Shown here piece by piece: positions 51,128-58,145 of a DNA stretch of 64,000 nucleotides; positions within the stretch are counted from its first letter, which is position 1; each line of letters starts with the position of its first letter. The notes under the pieces are model-generated. The model did not search any database. It was given only the letters and a program-made list of their open reading frames with translations, and was not told the origin of the DNA. The stretch covers positions 868,001-932,000 of the forward strand of contig NZ_CP130713.1 in assembly GCF_030553055.1 (NCBI RefSeq), read 5' to 3'. The position numbers and the translations under genes are program-made. This DNA comes from Streptomyces sp. XD-27. Its GTDB lineage: Bacteria; Actinomycetota; Actinomycetes; Streptomycetales; Streptomycetaceae.

Positions 51128-52156
51128 ATGATCGATGCTGTACGGACGGTGGGAAGGCCCCGGCGCACCTGGGGGCAGCGGTGGTCGCGCTGGGTGGGCC
51201 GGGTGACGGTGTGCTGGGGAGTGGCGTACGCCTGCTTCGGCCTGGCCTGCGCCGTGAGCGGGACCCCGCTGCTCTACCACGGCGACGACCCGGGGCCCTC
51301 CGCCTTGGGGTGGGGTGTCGCCGCGGTGGGCGCGCTGGCGGCGCTGGCCTGCGCGGCGGTGGCGCGCTATGGGCTGCGTCCGGCCCTGCGGGTGCTGCTG
51401 TGGGTGATCTGCGCGCTGGCGGGGATCGCCGCGTTCAGCCTGCTGATGGACGTCATCACGCTGATGGTCGGCCAAGGGGTGGACAGTCGGGCGTCTGCCG
51501 CGAACCACGCGCTGGCGGCGGCCGGGGTGCTCCTGCTCGCGGCGACCGCCCGGTCCGACCGCCTGCCGCCCGCCGCGGCCTCCGTGCCGGCGCCGTCCGC
51601 CGCTCCCCCGCCGGTGCAACGCGCCGCCTGGGCCGGGACGCTGGCCTTCCTCCCGTACGCGGCGATGAAGCTCGTATGGGCCTTCGGTGGCACCTTCGCC
51701 GGGGTGTCGGGCGAGGAGATGCTCGCGGTCTCGAGACGTAACGGGGCCTCGGAGCTGTGGCTCACCCTGGAGTCCTGGGGGCTGGACGCCACCGTGCTGC
51801 TGGCAGCGCTCGGCGTCTTCCTGCTCTGGGGTCTGGTCCGCCCGTGGGGCCAGGTCTTCCCGCGCTGGACGCTGCTCCTGCACGGACGCCGCGTCCCGCG
51901 CTGGCTGCCCCTGGCCCCCGCCCTGGTCGGCGCCGCCACGCTCGCCCCGTACGGGGTGGTCGGGGTCGGCTACTCGGCCCTGGCCACGGTCGGCGTGGTG
52001 ACGATGCCGCGCGGTGACTTCCCCTCCTCGCAGGACGCGCTGCTGGTCTGCTGGATCGGCATGGCCGCGTTCGCCGTGTACGGCGTCGCGCTGACCGCCG
52101 CCGCCCGCTCGTACTGGCTGCGCACGCGCCCCGTCTGCCGCGTGCTCACGTCGTGA
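51128..52156 (+). CDS. Integral membrane protein sharing an RPWG motif with the protein at 61974
   Basis: Membrane protein of 342 residues with about eight hydrophobic helices. The last half contains LLWGLVRPWGQVFPRW followed by LHGRRVPRWLPLAPAL, a pattern found again in the 197-residue protein encoded at 61974. A Pro/Ala-rich hydrophilic loop lies at about residue 150. No transporter motif is recognised. Its 3' end overlaps that of the convergent phytase gene by 11 nt. Function unknown. Confidence 0.8.
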   Translation: MIDAVRTVGRPRRTWGQRWSRWVGRVTVCWGVAYACFGLACAVSGTPLLYHGDDPGPSALGWGVAAVGALAALACAAVARYGLRPALRVLLWVICALAGIAAFSLLMDVITLMVGQGVDSRASAANHALAAAGVLLLAATARSDRLPPAAASVPAPSAAPPPVQRAAWAGTLAFLPYAAMKLVWAFGGTFAGVSGEEMLAVSRRNGASELWLTLESWGLDATVLLAALGVFLLWGLVRPWGQVFPRWTLLLHGRRVPRWLPLAPALVGAATLAPYGVVGVGYSALATVGVVTMPRGDFPSSQDALLVCWIGMAAFAVYGVALTAAARSYWLRTRPVCRVLTS

Positions 52157-53204
52157 TGCGTTCCAGCGGTATGAGCTTGAAGTTCTGGTTGCCGCTGGTG
52201 CCGGGCGAGGTGTTGGAGCCGTCCTGGCAGACGAAGACGCCGTGGGGGAAGGCCGGTCCCAGGTTCGCCGTCGTCGCGTCGATGCCGTCGGTGTCCTCGC
52301 AGCCGTCGGCGGCGCTGCCCCGGACCACGGAGAAGCGGCCGGTGTAACTGCCCGTGGCCCGGTCGTAGGTGGTGTAGTCGTTGCTGCCCTGGGAGGAGAC
52401 GATGATCCGGTCGCCCGCGGCGGTGATGCCCTCGACGTCGGCGGTGAGGTGACCGTCCGAGCCGGTGGAGTCCATCAGGGTGCGGCCGGTGCCCGCGTCC
52501 GGCTCGGCACCGTAAGCCCACACGCCGACGTCCTCCTCGCCGAGGTACAGCTTGCCGGTGGTCTCGTCGGCGAAGCAGCCCTCCACGGTGCTCTCGGCGC
52601 CGAAGAGCCGCACCGACCGGGTGGCCACCGCGTCGCCGTCGACGGTGATCTCCCACTGCTCGACGCGTCCGGAGGTGGAGTTGGGGAAGGCGTAGAGCTT
52701 TCCGGACGACGGCGACTTGTACATGCAGATGCCGTGCGCGGTGACCTCGGTGGGCACGTCCTTGAGGTGCTTCAGCTTCCGGGTGGCCGCGTCCATGCGG
52801 TAGATGTGCATGGCGCCGTTGCCGTTCTCCGCCTCGTCGTCCGCCGAGACGACGATGTCGCCGCGGAGGTCGACGTTGTTGCCATGGTCTCCGGCGACGC
52901 GCTGGATGCGGGCGCCCTTCAGGTCGTAGACCTCCAGGGCGCCCTTCTTGTCGGTACCGACCACCACGGACTTCGCCGGATCGCCGGGGTGCACCCAGAC
53001 GGCGGGGTCGTCGGCGGCGTCGCCACTGTGGGAGACCGGCGCCGTCTCGACGGTGGCCGTCACCTCGGTGCCCGCGGTGTGCGGGGTGTCCGCGTGGGAC
53101 GGCGCGGCGGCCTGCCAGAGCAGGGCCGCGGCGGCGGTGACGGTGACGGCAACGGCGGTACCGCGTACGGCCGGTCGGGTGGGGGTGATGTCAGGGGACA
53201 CCAT
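52146..53204 (-). CDS. Beta-propeller phytase
   Basis: Secreted phytate phosphatase of 352 residues. After a signal peptide (hydrophobic run to about APSHADT at residue 40) the sequence shows family signatures DAADDPAVWVHPGDPAKSVV, GTDKKGALEVYDLKG, HGNNVDLRG and a later calcium-binding EGCFADETTGKLYLGEEDVGVW, which matches the six-bladed BPP fold. It releases phosphate from phytate in a calcium-dependent manner. ATG 53204 follows AAGGGA; an ATG at 53216 and a GTG one codon later are alternatives. It may serve phosphate scavenging; no PHO box was identified. Confidence 0.92.
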   Translation of the reverse strand: MVSPDITPTRPAVRGTAVAVTVTAAAALLWQAAAPSHADTPHTAGTEVTATVETAPVSHSGDAADDPAVWVHPGDPAKSVVVGTDKKGALEVYDLKGARIQRVAGDHGNNVDLRGDIVVSADDEAENGNGAMHIYRMDAATRKLKHLKDVPTEVTAHGICMYKSPSSGKLYAFPNSTSGRVEQWEITVDGDAVATRSVRLFGAESTVEGCFADETTGKLYLGEEDVGVWAYGAEPDAGTGRTLMDSTGSDGHLTADVEGITAAGDRIIVSSQGSNDYTTYDRATGSYTGRFSVVRGSAADGCEDTDGIDATTANLGPAFPHGVFVCQDGSNTSPGTSGNQNFKLIPLERITT

Positions 53205-53324
53205 GGTTCCCTTCATGTGGGGGTGGGACAACGAGGACGATAGGAAGCCCGTTCGAGTGTTTCCTGAACGACAGGTGAACGGAATACCCATGACCGGCGG
53301 CAGGCGTCACTGTGTGACGGTTCG

Positions 53325-54950
53325 TCAACTCTCGGACGTCCAGGTGCCCTCGGGCAGCCACCGCACCTCGCCCGTCCCCAGCGTGATGGTGGCCCGCGGC
53401 CGCATGGGCTCGTCGCCTCGGCGGGAGAGCAGGACCACCTCCCCCACCCGCGCCGACATGCCGCCCAACAGGGCCTCGCACTGGGCGGCGAGCCGGTGCG
53501 GGTCCCGGGTCCGGCCCAGGGAGAGGTGCGGCGTGAAGCCCTTGGCGCGGCCGACGCAGCGGGGGAACCGCTGCTCGAGGGCGTGGTGCAGTTCCGCCCA
53601 CGGGGCCGCGCCGGCCGCCGCCGGGTCGAGCCAGACGGTGGCGTCCTCCCGGTGCCGGAAGGCGCGTACCCCCTCCAGCCGGGCGGTGAACGCCGTCGTC
53701 TCGGCCGCCGCCGCGGCGAGCAACGGCGCCGCCCGCTCGAAATCGGCCTCCGGTACGAAGCCGAAGAGCAGGTTGACGTGCGGTGGCCAGCGGCGGATCT
53801 GCCGATCGTGCTGCCGTCGGATGTACTGGATCGACGGCCACAGCTCCTGTGGGGGGATCCACGCCACCGCGGTACGGGGCGTCGGCGCGACGGCGAGCAC
53901 ATCGGTGGCCCCGGTCGCGCCGGTGTCCTGATCGCCGTGGGCCAGGTCCACCTCCACGCCGTACGCGCCGGAGACCGGGTCCGCCGCCACGCCATGGTGG
54001 TCTGATGCGTACGACTCCTCCGGGGTGGGTGAGCCCGGGACCGCTCGGGTCGGGCGCCAGCCGCCCGCGCGCACGAGCACCCGGTCGCGGGGCCGGTGCC
54101 CGCGCCCGTTCCCGTGCACGTCGGTCCAGGCGTCCCGCAGTCCGAGCGCCGCGGCGGGTCCGCCTCCACCCTCGCCGCCGCCGTTGACGTCACCGTTGAC
54201 GTCGCCGAGCAGGATCAGGTCGCCGACCACACCGGCCAGCACCTCGGCGAGCTGGTCCCATGCGGCCGGACGGGTGGCGGCCACGACGAGCGGTCCGGAT
54301 TCGGCGTCCGGGGCGGTGTCCACGACGATGGCGGTCACAGCCCCGTGCGGTCCGAGGGTGTGCCACCCCGCCTCCCGTACGGGCAACCGGCTGAGCAGCA
54401 GCGGGCCGCCGTCGTCGATGTCCTGGCCGGCCGGATCGGTGCTCAGTGTGTAGCCGGCCCGCACCCACGGGGCCCGCAGCAGCAGGGCGAGCGGTTCCGG
54501 GTCGGCCTCCTCCAGCGCGATGATGTCCGCGTCGGCGGCCGTCAGGGCGAGCGTGTGCCAGGTCAGGACGCGCAGCCCCGCCACCGTCGGCGGTGGGCGG
54601 GGCGTACGGCCCTGCGTACGGCCTACGGGGCACCAGCCGGCCGCCGGGTCCCATGCGTACGGCGTCCTGGCCATGAAGAACGGCGCCCGCAGGCGGCGCG
54701 GGTCCGGTACCCGTCCGGCCCGCGAGGCGTCGATGCGGTCCATGCCGGTGGCGCGGTCCCAGACCAGCTCGCCGTCCGCCTCGACGAACAGCACGCGATG
54801 CCAGGGGATGTCACCTCCGGGGACGAAGGCGGGCAGCGGGATCCGCTCGGGCGCGGCGGTGCCGCGCTGCCTGATCCCCAGCACGAACCGGGCGGGATCG
54901 AACCGCGGGTCGTAGCAGACACGGTGGTAGATCTCCTGGCTGGTGCGCAT
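53325..54950 (-). CDS. Three-domain RNA-end-repair fusion: MJ1316 (DUF504), EEP nuclease-like and 2H phosphoesterase
   Basis: Protein of 541 residues without signal peptide. Domain 1 (1-75) has the MJ1316/DUF504 pattern [20 protein letters not shown], then [18 protein letters not shown] and MDRID; this domain is thought to recognise RNA with cyclic phosphate ends. Domain 2 (about 125-325) resembles endonuclease/exonuclease/phosphatase enzymes ([37 protein letters not shown]), although two usual residues are changed (WH for WN, ATR for THL). Domain 3 (about 385-541) is a 2'-5' RNA ligase-like 2H domain with HVN at 391 and HLS at 475. It is 64 nt after a P-loop NTPase/TPR gene and on the same strand. 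The combination points to processing of damaged RNA ends; substrate and partners are inference. Confidence 0.85.
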
Positions 54951-55014
54951 CGCTCACGCCTCCGTGGCCTCCGGTACCCACAGTGCCACCACGCGCGCGG
55001 CCGCTGCCTGCCTC

Positions 55015-57987
55015 TCACGGGCCTGCGTCGCTCGCGGCGCCGAGACCCGCGACGGCGCGGCGGATCCGGTCGGCCGCGTCGGGGCGGCGTTCGGCGGCCA
55101 GCTGGTCGGCGAGCCGGGAGCCGACGGCCTGGTGCAGCCCGGCGACGACCGCCGCCGTGGCACGGCTCCGCTCGCAGATGCCCGTGGCCTCGGAGAACAG
55201 GTGGACGGCTTCCTGCAGCCGGGAGCCGCCCGCCTCGGCCCGGACGCCCACGGCGTTGAGCAGGGCGTGGGTGAGCTTCGGCGTGACCCCCGGGTCGGCC
55301 TCGGCCATCCTGCGGCGTACGGCCACGCACTCGTCGGCCGCGGCGAGGGCGTCGTCATGCCGCCGGGTGACGAGCAGGACCGTGCTGAGCGCGCCCAGCG
55401 CCTCGGCCAGGAAGTGCCCGTGGGCCTCCGGCTGCCGCTCGGCCAGTCGGCGCAGGATCGCCACCGACTCGTGGGCGGCGGAGAGCGCCTCGGCAGGCCG
55501 GCCCGCCATGAGGAACCGCAGGCCGAGCCCGGACAGGACGTTCGCCAGTTCGCTCTCGTAGGAGGCCGGATTGGTTGCGGCGAGCTGCCGGTACAGCGTC
55601 GCGGCCTCCTGCCCCGTGGGGACGGCGTCACGGCTGCCGGTGCGGGCCAGGGCCGCGGCGAGGTTGGTCAGGGCAGTGGCCAGGGCCGGGGTGTAGGCGG
55701 CCGGCTCCGCCCGCGCGAGCCGGCGCAGGATGGTCACGCCTTCCCGGGTCGCCGTCACCGCTTCCTCCGGTCGGCCGGTCCGGCCGAGGCACAGGCCGAG
55801 CGCCACCAGCGACGCGGACAGGTCCGGCTCGTGTGCGGCGGGGTCGGCCGCGGCCAGCCGCCGGTGCAGCGCCACACACTCCTCCTGCGCGGCGGCCGCC
55901 TCGTCCCAGCGGTCGGCGAGGGACAGGCCGCGTCCCACGTTGAGCAGCGCGTTCGCGAGGTCGGGAAGGAAGCGCTCGTCGCGCTCGGCGAGCCCGCGCA
56001 GGATGCCCACGGATTCCTCGGTGACGGCCTGCGCCTCGGCGCGCCGCCCGACGGCGGCCAGCCGGACGCCGTGGGCCTTCAGCGCGACCGCGAGGTTGCG
56101 TTCGACCGTGACCGCCAGGGCGGGAGTGGGCATGTCGGCCGGATCGATCGCCCGGTACTGCTCGACGGCGGTCGCGGACTGGGCCACGGCCTCTTCCAGC
56201 CGACCCGCGTGGTGGAGCCGGATGCTGAGTTGGTGCCGTACGGCGGCCTGGTCGCCGGGGTGCCCGGCGCCTGCGAGGCGGTGCGGCAGCAGCCGGACGC
56301 TGACGGCGGCGATGCCCGGGTCGAGGTCGACGTCGGGCCGCCGGAAGGACGGGAAGTGCGCGGCGACGGCCTCGAGGAGCTCCGGAGCGATGTCGTCGAG
56401 CGCGGCCAGGGCGGACAGCGCGCCGCTGCCGCCGGCGACGGCGAGCTGCGGGGCGGACGCGAGCAGCGGGAACAGGTACCGCGGGCCGACGTGCGGCCAG
56501 CGCTGGGCGGCGGCGACGAGGAAGGTGACGGCACGGGGTGTCCAGGTGTCGGCGACCGAGCCCGTGCCGATGCCGGTCCGGATCCTGACGCCGCCACCGC
56601 CGCCGCTACCAGGACCGGTGCCGCTGCCGGTGCCCGCGCCCGTCCCGGTGCCCGCGCCCGTCCTCGTACCGTTGCCCGCGCCCGTTCCGGTGCCCATGCC
56701 CGCGCCGGTGAGCAGAGCGCTGATCGTCGGCCCGGCCCACGGCTGTGCCGGGTACTCGGCTCGGTGTCCCGGGAGAGTGAGCGCCAGGAAGTCCTCGCTC
56801 AGCCGGTCCGGGTACAGCGGTTCCAGCACGGTGTCCTGGTCCGGATCCGCCGGGGGGTAGCACACGGCGTGGTCCGCGAGGACGCGCCGGGCCGGCAGCC
56901 GCAGGTCCATCCCGTCGACGACGTCCCGCCCCTTCGCGGGCGCCAGCGGCCCGGTGAGCGCCGCGGCGAAGACCGTACGGTTCATCACGTCGGGCGGCGT
57001 GGTGAACGCCGTGCCGGACGGGGCGATCTCGTGGCCGGCGTCCCCGGCGTCTTTGTGGAGGCGCGCCCAGTGGAGGTGTTCGCGGTCCAGGAGGTAGCTG
57101 GTCAGCCCGGCGAGGTCGGCCGGTGGCCGCCGGCCCGCGGCGCGGGCGTCGACGGCGACCAGAGCGGCCATGTGCACCGCCAGGGTCAGGCCGAAGTCGG
57201 CGCTCACGAGCGCCTCGGGTGCGGTGATGCCGGCGGACGGGATGCCGTACCGGACGGCGAAGCTGTCGCGGGCGACGGTGAACATCTCCGCCCGCGGCGA
57301 CCGGGACCCGCCCTCCCCATCCCCCTCGTTCCCTTCCCGGTCTCCGCCCCCCTCGTCGGACACGCCGGGCAGCGGCGGGAGGAACTGGGCGGACGTCGCC
57401 GCCTGTTGGTTGGCCAGTGCGGCGCGGACGGCGGGCCAGACGTCGTCGCTGCGGGCCAGCAGCAGGACGCGGGCGCGCCCGGCAGGCCGGTGCAGCAGCG
57501 CGTTGCTGAGCAGCCACAACAGGTGGGACAGCGGCCAGCGGTCGGCGTAGTCGACGATCAGCAGGGTCCTGGCGTCGGCCGCGGCGCCGAGGTCCTGGCT
57601 GCCGGGCGGTGGCAGGACGCTGCCCGGGCCGTGCGTGGCGGTCACGACCTGCCAGCCGTCGGCCGCGGACTGCTGTGCGAAGTGGTCGGCGAGCCGGGTC
57701 TTGCCCTGGCCGCCCGGGGCGTGCAGCCACCGCACGGCCAGCCGCGCCCCCTCGTCGCGCCACCGCCGCAGCGCCGCCAGCTCCGCCGCGCGCCCGGTGA
57801 ACTCCACGACGCCGAACCGGGCGTTGAGCATCCGGCTCGGCAGCTCGCGCAGAAACCCGTCGTCGGGTGGGGCCGTCGGCCTCCACCGCTGGAGCAGGTA
57901 CACCGGTACGCCGTCGCCGAAGACGTGGATGTCGGCGCCGATCGCACCGTAGGCGAAACCGTTCTCGGCGCGTACGTGCTGGGTCAC
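55015..57987 (-). CDS. P-loop NTPase (STAND/NB-ARC-like) with TPR C-terminus
   Basis: Cytoplasmic protein of 990 residues. An N-terminal region of about 60 residues of unknown type is followed by a P-loop GGQGKT (92-97) and Walker B TLLIVDYADRW (141-151), then a helical region. About residues 426-466 form a Gly/Thr-rich linker of tandem GTGTGAG-type units. After a further helical block, residues about 560-980 form TPR-like repeats (ALAVTVERNLAVALK, LANALLNVGRGLSLADRWDEA, LATALTNLAAALARTG). GTG 57987 follows GGGGGAC. It resembles signal-transducing ATPases that sense a trigger through repeats. It is encoded 64 nt upstream of the RNA-repair fusion, so I infer a functional pair. Confidence 0.85.
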   Translation of the reverse strand: MTQHVRAENGFAYGAIGADIHVFGDGVPVYLLQRWRPTAPPDDGFLRELPSRMLNARFGVVEFTGRAAELAALRRWRDEGARLAVRWLHAPGGQGKTRLADHFAQQSAADGWQVVTATHGPGSVLPPPGSQDLGAAADARTLLIVDYADRWPLSHLLWLLSNALLHRPAGRARVLLLARSDDVWPAVRAALANQQAATSAQFLPPLPGVSDEGGGDREGNEGDGEGGSRSPRAEMFTVARDSFAVRYGIPSAGITAPEALVSADFGLTLAVHMAALVAVDARAAGRRPPADLAGLTSYLLDREHLHWARLHKDAGDAGHEIAPSGTAFTTPPDVMNRTVFAAALTGPLAPAKGRDVVDGMDLRLPARRVLADHAVCYPPADPDQDTVLEPLYPDRLSEDFLALTLPGHRAEYPAQPWAGPTISALLTGAGMGTGTGAGNGTRTGAGTGTGAGTGSGTGPGSGGGGGVRIRTGIGTGSVADTWTPRAVTFLVAAAQRWPHVGPRYLFPLLASAPQLAVAGGSGALSALAALDDIAPELLEAVAAHFPSFRRPDVDLDPGIAAVSVRLLPHRLAGAGHPGDQAAVRHQLSIRLHHAGRLEEAVAQSATAVEQYRAIDPADMPTPALAVTVERNLAVALKAHGVRLAAVGRRAEAQAVTEESVGILRGLAERDERFLPDLANALLNVGRGLSLADRWDEAAAAQEECVALHRRLAAADPAAHEPDLSASLVALGLCLGRTGRPEEAVTATREGVTILRRLARAEPAAYTPALATALTNLAAALARTGSRDAVPTGQEAATLYRQLAATNPASYESELANVLSGLGLRFLMAGRPAEALSAAHESVAILRRLAERQPEAHGHFLAEALGALSTVLLVTRRHDDALAAADECVAVRRRMAEADPGVTPKLTHALLNAVGVRAEAGGSRLQEAVHLFSEATGICERSRATAAVVAGLHQAVGSRLADQLAAERRPDAADRIRRAVAGLGAASDAGP

Positions 57988-58145
57988 GAGAGATCGTCCC
58001 CCGCGCCCGGCACGGCGAGTAACGACAGCGGCTCCGGCATCGTGGTCTCCTCCCACCCCGAGGCGGTCGGCTGACCGCCGTGAGGCAAACGTACCTCCCC
58101 CCTCTGACACCGAAGCGGGGTGCGGCCGGGTTCCCGCCGGCGGGA

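Follow-up and report, generated by a model that had tools for sequence, protein, structure and literature searches.

The 541-aa protein encoded on the reverse strand of the window (the whole 64,000-nt stretch of Streptomyces sp. XD-27 DNA analysed here) probably derives by reduction from an RNA-repair protein of actinobacteria made up of MJ1316, EEP, 2H and poly(A) polymerase domains, its own EEP domain being in decay and the NTPase gene beside it a chance neighbour. Its parts are as follows.

53325..54950, reverse strand: 541-aa MJ1316–(degenerate EEP)–2H protein (exact ORF; Pfam)
54753..54950, reverse strand: MJ1316 domain, Pfam match to residues 1–66 (Pfam, alignment)
54555..54557, reverse strand: His132 at the first EEP motif, where 47/47 full-length relatives of the alignment have Asn (alignment)
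53997..54545, reverse strand: degenerate EEP domain, Pfam match to residues 136–318 (Pfam, alignment)
53409..53855, reverse strand: 2H phosphoesterase domain, Pfam match to residues 366–514 (Pfam, alignment)
53778..53780, reverse strand: 2H motif 1, His391 (HVNL; sequence motif)
53526..53528, reverse strand: 2H motif 2, His475 (HLSL; sequence motif)

Domain content of the fusion protein

A preliminary description of this DNA had delimited the ORF at 54950-53325 on the reverse strand and assigned MJ1316, EEP and 2H domains to its product; the coordinates proved exact, and all three domains score above their Pfam cut-offs. MJ1316 (PF04457) reaches 61.2 bits against a cut-off of 26.3, placing the protein in that family, and Exo_endo_phos (PF03372) reaches 39.3 bits against 24.5, which identifies the central region as a member of the EEP superfamily by descent. 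The third domain matches 2_5_RNA_ligase2 (PF13563) at 109.8 bits against 27, and both histidine motifs occur as had been pointed out (HVN at 391, HLS at 475); these two motifs, together with the fold, make the protein a member of the 2H superfamily. Structure prediction, which had been proposed as a check, agrees with this, as Foldseek matches the 2H part of the model to YjcG, the Arabidopsis CPDase (AtCPDase) and Escherichia coli LigT, and the EEP part to Tdp2 and Nocturnin. Searching PDB sequences with the 541-aa protein alone returned no match. The first 2H motif takes the form HxN in 47/48 relatives of the alignment. The window protein is a single-sequence cluster whose nearest relative, among the matches listed, is 63% identical, and in tblastn comparisons it shows 45-63% identity to full-length relatives.

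Decay of the EEP domain

Conservation was assessed against 47 full-length relatives, with positions conserved in ≥95% of them regarded as near-invariant and each of the 47 controls scored against the others; the comparison excluded L010, L060 and rows L011-L013, which have no EEP. By this measure the window EEP has lost 45/96 near-invariant positions, compared with a median of 1 and a maximum of 5 in the controls. The same protein has changed 1/39 such positions in MJ1316 (residues up to the W106 region; controls ≤3) and 0/60 in 2H (controls ≤6), giving a joint loss of 1/99 that lies inside the control range. Decay is confined to one domain, the EEP, and the MJ1316 and 2H domains of the window lineage are best read as being under continuing constraint.

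The EEP changes (L006 numbering) comprise N125 to H, K216 to G and deletion of H236 and D240, with the THLTSDH stretch absent. E161, D272, N274, D352 and H353 are kept, and an SDH motif is retained. We take these residues to be catalytic or metal-binding, as is also indicated by their invariance in the alignment. The 541-aa protein does not possess the intact set expected of an active EEP enzyme, and the earlier reading of a nuclease-like domain in working order fails on the active-site positions that are gone. The domain may nonetheless have a residual or new function, because it scores above the Pfam cut-off and keeps its E, D and N residues and the SDH motif. Sequencing error was rejected as the source of the decay, which comprises several in-frame deletions as well as substitutions in a frame that stays open; a second broken EEP, in the relative P0012, also counts against it.

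Relatives and the ligase–kinase neighbour

The fusion protein finds matches in 120/297 genomes sampled from the family at E ≤ 1e-20 (window genome included), and the MJ1316 domain is above cut-off in 85/297. Neighbourhoods were compared at 115 further loci, of which 12 lie on genome contigs, 100 belong to the family sample and 3 come from plasmid records (species may recur between these sets). The loci were selected for their resemblance to the window protein or MJ1316, irrespective of neighbours, and classed by tblastn at E ≤ 1e-4. These comprise 78 MJ1316-EEP-2H-PAP, 4 MJ1316-EEP-PAP, 18 MJ1316-2H, 12 2H-only (the 12 fetched from among the matches listed) and 1 MJ1316-only loci, along with 1 MJ1316-EEP-2H and 1 MJ1316-EEP locus that both look broken. 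Broken-looking copies occur at L060 (frame-shifted), L104 and L106.

One gene family lies directly upstream of the fusion in 39/52 of the first relatives clustered, and its member at L006 (Nonomuraea) encodes an RNA ligase (PF09414, 107 bits) joined to a kinase (AAA_33, 77 bits); a PDB sequence search with one ligase–kinase gave no match. Across the 115 loci, this gene adjoins 84/84 EEP-bearing loci and 0/31 EEP-less loci by tblastn, counts that are drawn from related genomes and hence not independent, with a median distance between matched stretches of 14 nt (-33 to 209). The association with RNA-end repair made in the preliminary description is thereby strengthened. No ligase–kinase adjoins the window fusion, which is the only EEP-bearing locus of this kind among those with a neighbourhood examined, namely the window and the 115 loci (the relatives P0012 and P0018 come from a metagenome-type source). 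Nor did a whole-genome search find one in the window genome (96.92% complete), where the sole match to the query (E 9.3e-6) falls within the kinase part of a Pnkp.

Genome-wide searches located a ligase–kinase in 5/20 genomes. It occurs away from the MJ1316-2H gene in 4/12 genomes with a solo gene of that type (G255, G144, G259, G092) and is not found in the other 8/12, nor in any of five genomes with 2H-only genes. Since four of the solo MJ1316-2H genomes carry a ligase–kinase elsewhere, the link between EEP and ligase–kinase is one of neighbourhood and not of genome content. A solo MJ1316-2H gene lies ~6.5 kb from an apparent RtcB-like protein (by eye) encoded at L013:15397-16821.

A poly(A) polymerase domain is also encoded at 82/84 EEP-bearing loci. 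PAP_central was found in the full-length protein of L006 (the copy scanned), and the family profile matches the eukaryotic poly(A) polymerase 4lt6 over its C-terminal part (1.1e-27), as well as Tdp2 (2.5e-4). Among the first 52 relatives, frames with both EEP and 2H measure 849-1207 aa (48 frames, without the frame-shifted L060); the window protein ends right after 2H, with no C-terminal polymerase, and the rest of its genome yielded no match for the polymerase segment. NCBI names for the full-length relatives are 'poly(A) polymerase' or 'RNA repair domain-containing protein'. L006:7998-10736 and its relatives represent a bacterial repair protein whose profile resembles eukaryotic canonical poly(A) polymerases at the C-terminus.

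A graded series of reduced forms

Two further relatives also lack the polymerase. P0012 (578 aa) has an EEP with 26/96 near-invariant positions lost, and its losses differ from those of the window protein; P0018 (580 aa) is less damaged at 11/96, which is still above every control. The EEP is wholly absent from the MJ1316-2H forms at 18/115 loci. Amongst the 2H-only genes, an EEP tail is recognisable before 2H in 5/12 (≤4/200 shuffles as good), which points to loss and not gain; the shuffle comparison revealed no clear EEP remnant in the other 7/12.

A 2H tree was built from 79 sequences, being the window, P0012, P0018 and 76 loci (L010, whose 2H segment was missed by the cutting pattern, and L060, L100-L106, L120-L127, L133 and L172-L192 are absent from it). 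It requires five changes between long and reduced forms, four of which are forced by well-supported branches. The reduced groups are the window/P0012 pair (support 86/41), a group R2 of P0018 with MJ1316-2H genes (100/99) and a group R3 of further MJ1316-2H genes (100/98); outside these groups fall a single MJ1316-2H gene, L095, and the genes with 2H only. On a tree of MJ1316 plus 2H, the window and P0012 split from the rest with a support of 96. The AU test weakly rejects the hypothesis that all reduced forms arose once (p 0.030, the groups having been named after the tree was seen) and does not reject a shared origin of the window type and R3 (p 0.21). The window fusion is best read as an intermediate stage of a reduction, undergone repeatedly, from the full repair protein to MJ1316-2H and to 2H alone.

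With regard to the MJ1316-EEP-PAP operons without 2H, three of the four genomes concerned (G144, G255 and G259, the fourth being G257) also carry a solo MJ1316-2H gene, the 2H-less loci L101, L102 and L105 going with the separate MJ1316-2H loci L089, L090 and L088, respectively. The separate gene accompanies the 2H-less operon in these genomes as if its 2H were working in trans.

The adjacent NTPase/TPR gene

55015..57987, reverse strand: STAND-like NTPase/TPR gene, 990 aa; adjacent, not a conserved partner (ORF, Pfam, neighbourhoods)
54951..55014, no strand: 64-nt intergenic gap without a terminator-like site (ORF ends, terminator scan)
57988..58145, no strand: 158-nt gap upstream of the NTPase gene; a ~160-aa gene occurs here in 17/20 relatives (ORFs, search)

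The gene before the fusion had been described as a STAND-like NTPase with TPRs, lying 64 nt away on the same strand. Gap (54951-55014) and strand are correct and the TPRs score above their Pfam cut-off; the NTPase part falls below it, at 15 of 34 bits for nSTAND_NTPase5. A Walker-A-like GGQGKT sequence is present. The protein belongs to a large family (of 7989 proteins scored, 1419 match at E ≤ 1e-10), and its N-terminal 429 residues have a match at E ≤ 1e-60 in 16/199 genus genomes, that of the window included; relatives occur in 26 plasmid records. Residues 428-476 (window 56560-56706) form a Gly/Thr-rich low-complexity insert, absent from the 82%-identical relative P0122. Comparison by tblastn (E ≤ 1e-3) covered 20 loci outside the window, 17 chromosomal and 3 on plasmids; a further partial match of 292 residues, in G308, is outside this set.

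The usual companion of the NTPase gene is a ~160-aa gene at its start, present in 17/20 loci and overlapping it by 4 nt, as called, in seven; examples are L153:6240-9514 (oriented), L128:4510-7808, L154, L159-L161, L164, L166 and L167. No match to it was obtained at L156, L158 and L163, nor below E 0.1 in the window using four copies, and two copies scanned against Pfam matched nothing at E ≤ 1. A glycine/histidine-rich motif is common to the C-terminus of its product and the N-terminus of the NTPase (52% over 23 residues, E 0.18).

Further upstream, a LuxR-type gene ends 158 nt from the NTPase/TPR gene; its product matches only CARF models of PADLOC, over the HTH end. On the other side, a phytase ORF (window 52146-53291, reverse strand; PF02333, 250 bits) follows the fusion after 33 nt on the same strand and, judged by eye, is probably a gene of its own, read from a later start that gives it a signal peptide. 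Scans of the DNA found 0 promoters against 0.1 expected from shuffles, and 2 terminators against 0.4 expected, neither of which is in the 64-nt gap.

Alternative explanations

The preliminary description had joined the NTPase/TPR protein and the fusion in a two-gene RNA-damage response or anti-phage module, and the single strand, the short gap lacking a terminator-like site and the patchy, plasmid-borne distribution of NTPase relatives are all compatible with such a unit. The co-occurrence of the two genes across homologues, on which that description had staked the proposal, tells against it: the NTPase gene is found at 0/115 fusion or 2H loci, and MJ1316, EEP, 2H, ligase–kinase and polymerase are found at 0/20 NTPase loci, so that the conserved adjacency expected of a STAND-effector conflict module is missing from both sides. 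Each gene has instead another usual neighbour, neither of which is found at the window. Defence assignment by PADLOC was likewise rejected, as neither protein matches a model at E ≤ 0.01. The two-gene module is therefore rejected as highly improbable, and a chance neighbour is the best explanation of the NTPase/TPR gene. Adjacency and domain names alone would have classed the locus as a defence module.

Within the fusion itself, the EEP could be a pseudoenzyme retained for a structural or regulatory role and not simply decaying. Its frame is open, GC by codon position across it (0.822, 0.558 and 0.893) is still coding-like, the AlphaFold mean pLDDT is 69-93 per ten-residue block from residues 121 to 250, and an EEP-sized region is also kept in P0012. 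We nevertheless regard this as unlikely, given that the window and P0012 have suffered different losses, that pLDDT drops below 50 at residues 254-262, 309-329 and 341-348, and that the domain is dispensable, since MJ1316-2H genes do without any EEP. Decay might alternatively extend to the whole gene, as a pseudogene on its way out; the ligase partner, the polymerase and the EEP active-site positions have all been lost, and relatives include the broken-looking copies noted above. Against this, MJ1316 and 2H have lost no more near-invariant positions than in controls, and MJ1316-2H and 2H-only forms persist across clades, making a pseudogene very unlikely. A reduced repair protein in which the EEP alone is decaying accordingly remains the favoured reading of the fusion.

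Proposed mechanism and comparison with known systems

We infer both the biochemical activities and the order of losses. The ancestral MJ1316-EEP-2H-poly(A) polymerase protein would normally have been encoded directly after the RNA ligase–polynucleotide kinase gene. MJ1316 would dock the 2′,3′-cyclic-phosphate RNA end, which 2H would hydrolyse to a monophosphate, probably the 2′ one. In the full system the kinase and ligase would seal the break, with 2H opening the cyclic end and the EEP clearing the remaining phosphate. The EEP of full-length relatives may act only in ligation-coupled repair, perhaps removing the phosphate left by 2H. The window lineage would have lost the ligase–kinase gene and the polymerase domain; with the ligase gone, the EEP would therefore be without a job and freed from selection, decaying in frame. 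This would leave one domain that recognises RNA ends and one that hydrolyses cyclic phosphates, and the window protein now probably only opens 2′,3′-cyclic phosphates. PMC9503650 describes 2H enzymes as opening 2′,3′-cyclic phosphates to leave a 2′-phosphate, which KptA removes in some systems.

The nearest known arrangement is the actinobacterial pair of ligase–kinase and MJ1316-EEP-2H-poly(A) polymerase genes, which has the same order of MJ1316, EEP and 2H as the window fusion; the window differs in having neither the ligase–kinase gene nor the polymerase domain, and in its broken EEP active site. The MJ1316-2H genes found in Streptomyces and elsewhere in the family (L011-L013, L088-L099 and, on plasmids, L131-L133) resemble the window in being solo, with no ligase–kinase adjoining and MJ1316 and 2H kept, but have the EEP removed entirely, whereas in the window it is present in decayed form. 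Bacterial LigT/ThpR and plant CPDase have the 2H fold in common with the window protein, and the first motif of LigT/ThpR-type enzymes follows the rule HxT/S; the window family instead has HxN and an extra MJ1316 domain, and the window protein falls well short of the score demanded by TIGR02258 (25.8 of 65.7 bits). The fungal and plant tRNA ligase Trl1/RNL combines ligase, kinase and 2H phosphodiesterase. The two genes of the relatives unite domains for the same three activities, a likeness of domain content, but spread them over two proteins and add MJ1316, EEP and polymerase.

Bacterial Pnkp-Hen1 repairs ribotoxin-cut RNA, according to PMC4411300. The window's own genome has a Pnkp (TIGR04075, 1388.6 bits) at a locus unrelated to the fusion (G000:C1:6172000-6184000; L107:5616-8165), preceded by an ORF judged Hen1-like by eye. 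This Pnkp/Hen1-like locus could conceivably take over ends opened by the fusion.

For the family as a whole, it is possible, and put forward tentatively, that the EEP is a ligation-coupled phosphatase removing the 2H-left phosphate, with MJ1316-2H proteins a separate, repeatedly evolved class that opens cyclic phosphates on RNA ends with no ligation close by and that may, in certain genomes, act in trans for a repair operon lacking 2H. Such a phosphatase would explain why the EEP stands beside the ligase at all 84 EEP-bearing loci compared outside the window and is decayed or absent without it. The relatives provide a natural deletion series, from the full repair protein through polymerase-less, dead-EEP and EEP-less forms to 2H alone, which ties the survival of one domain to the presence of one partner gene and yields a direct, testable prediction of the role of the EEP in a bacterial RNA-repair pathway.
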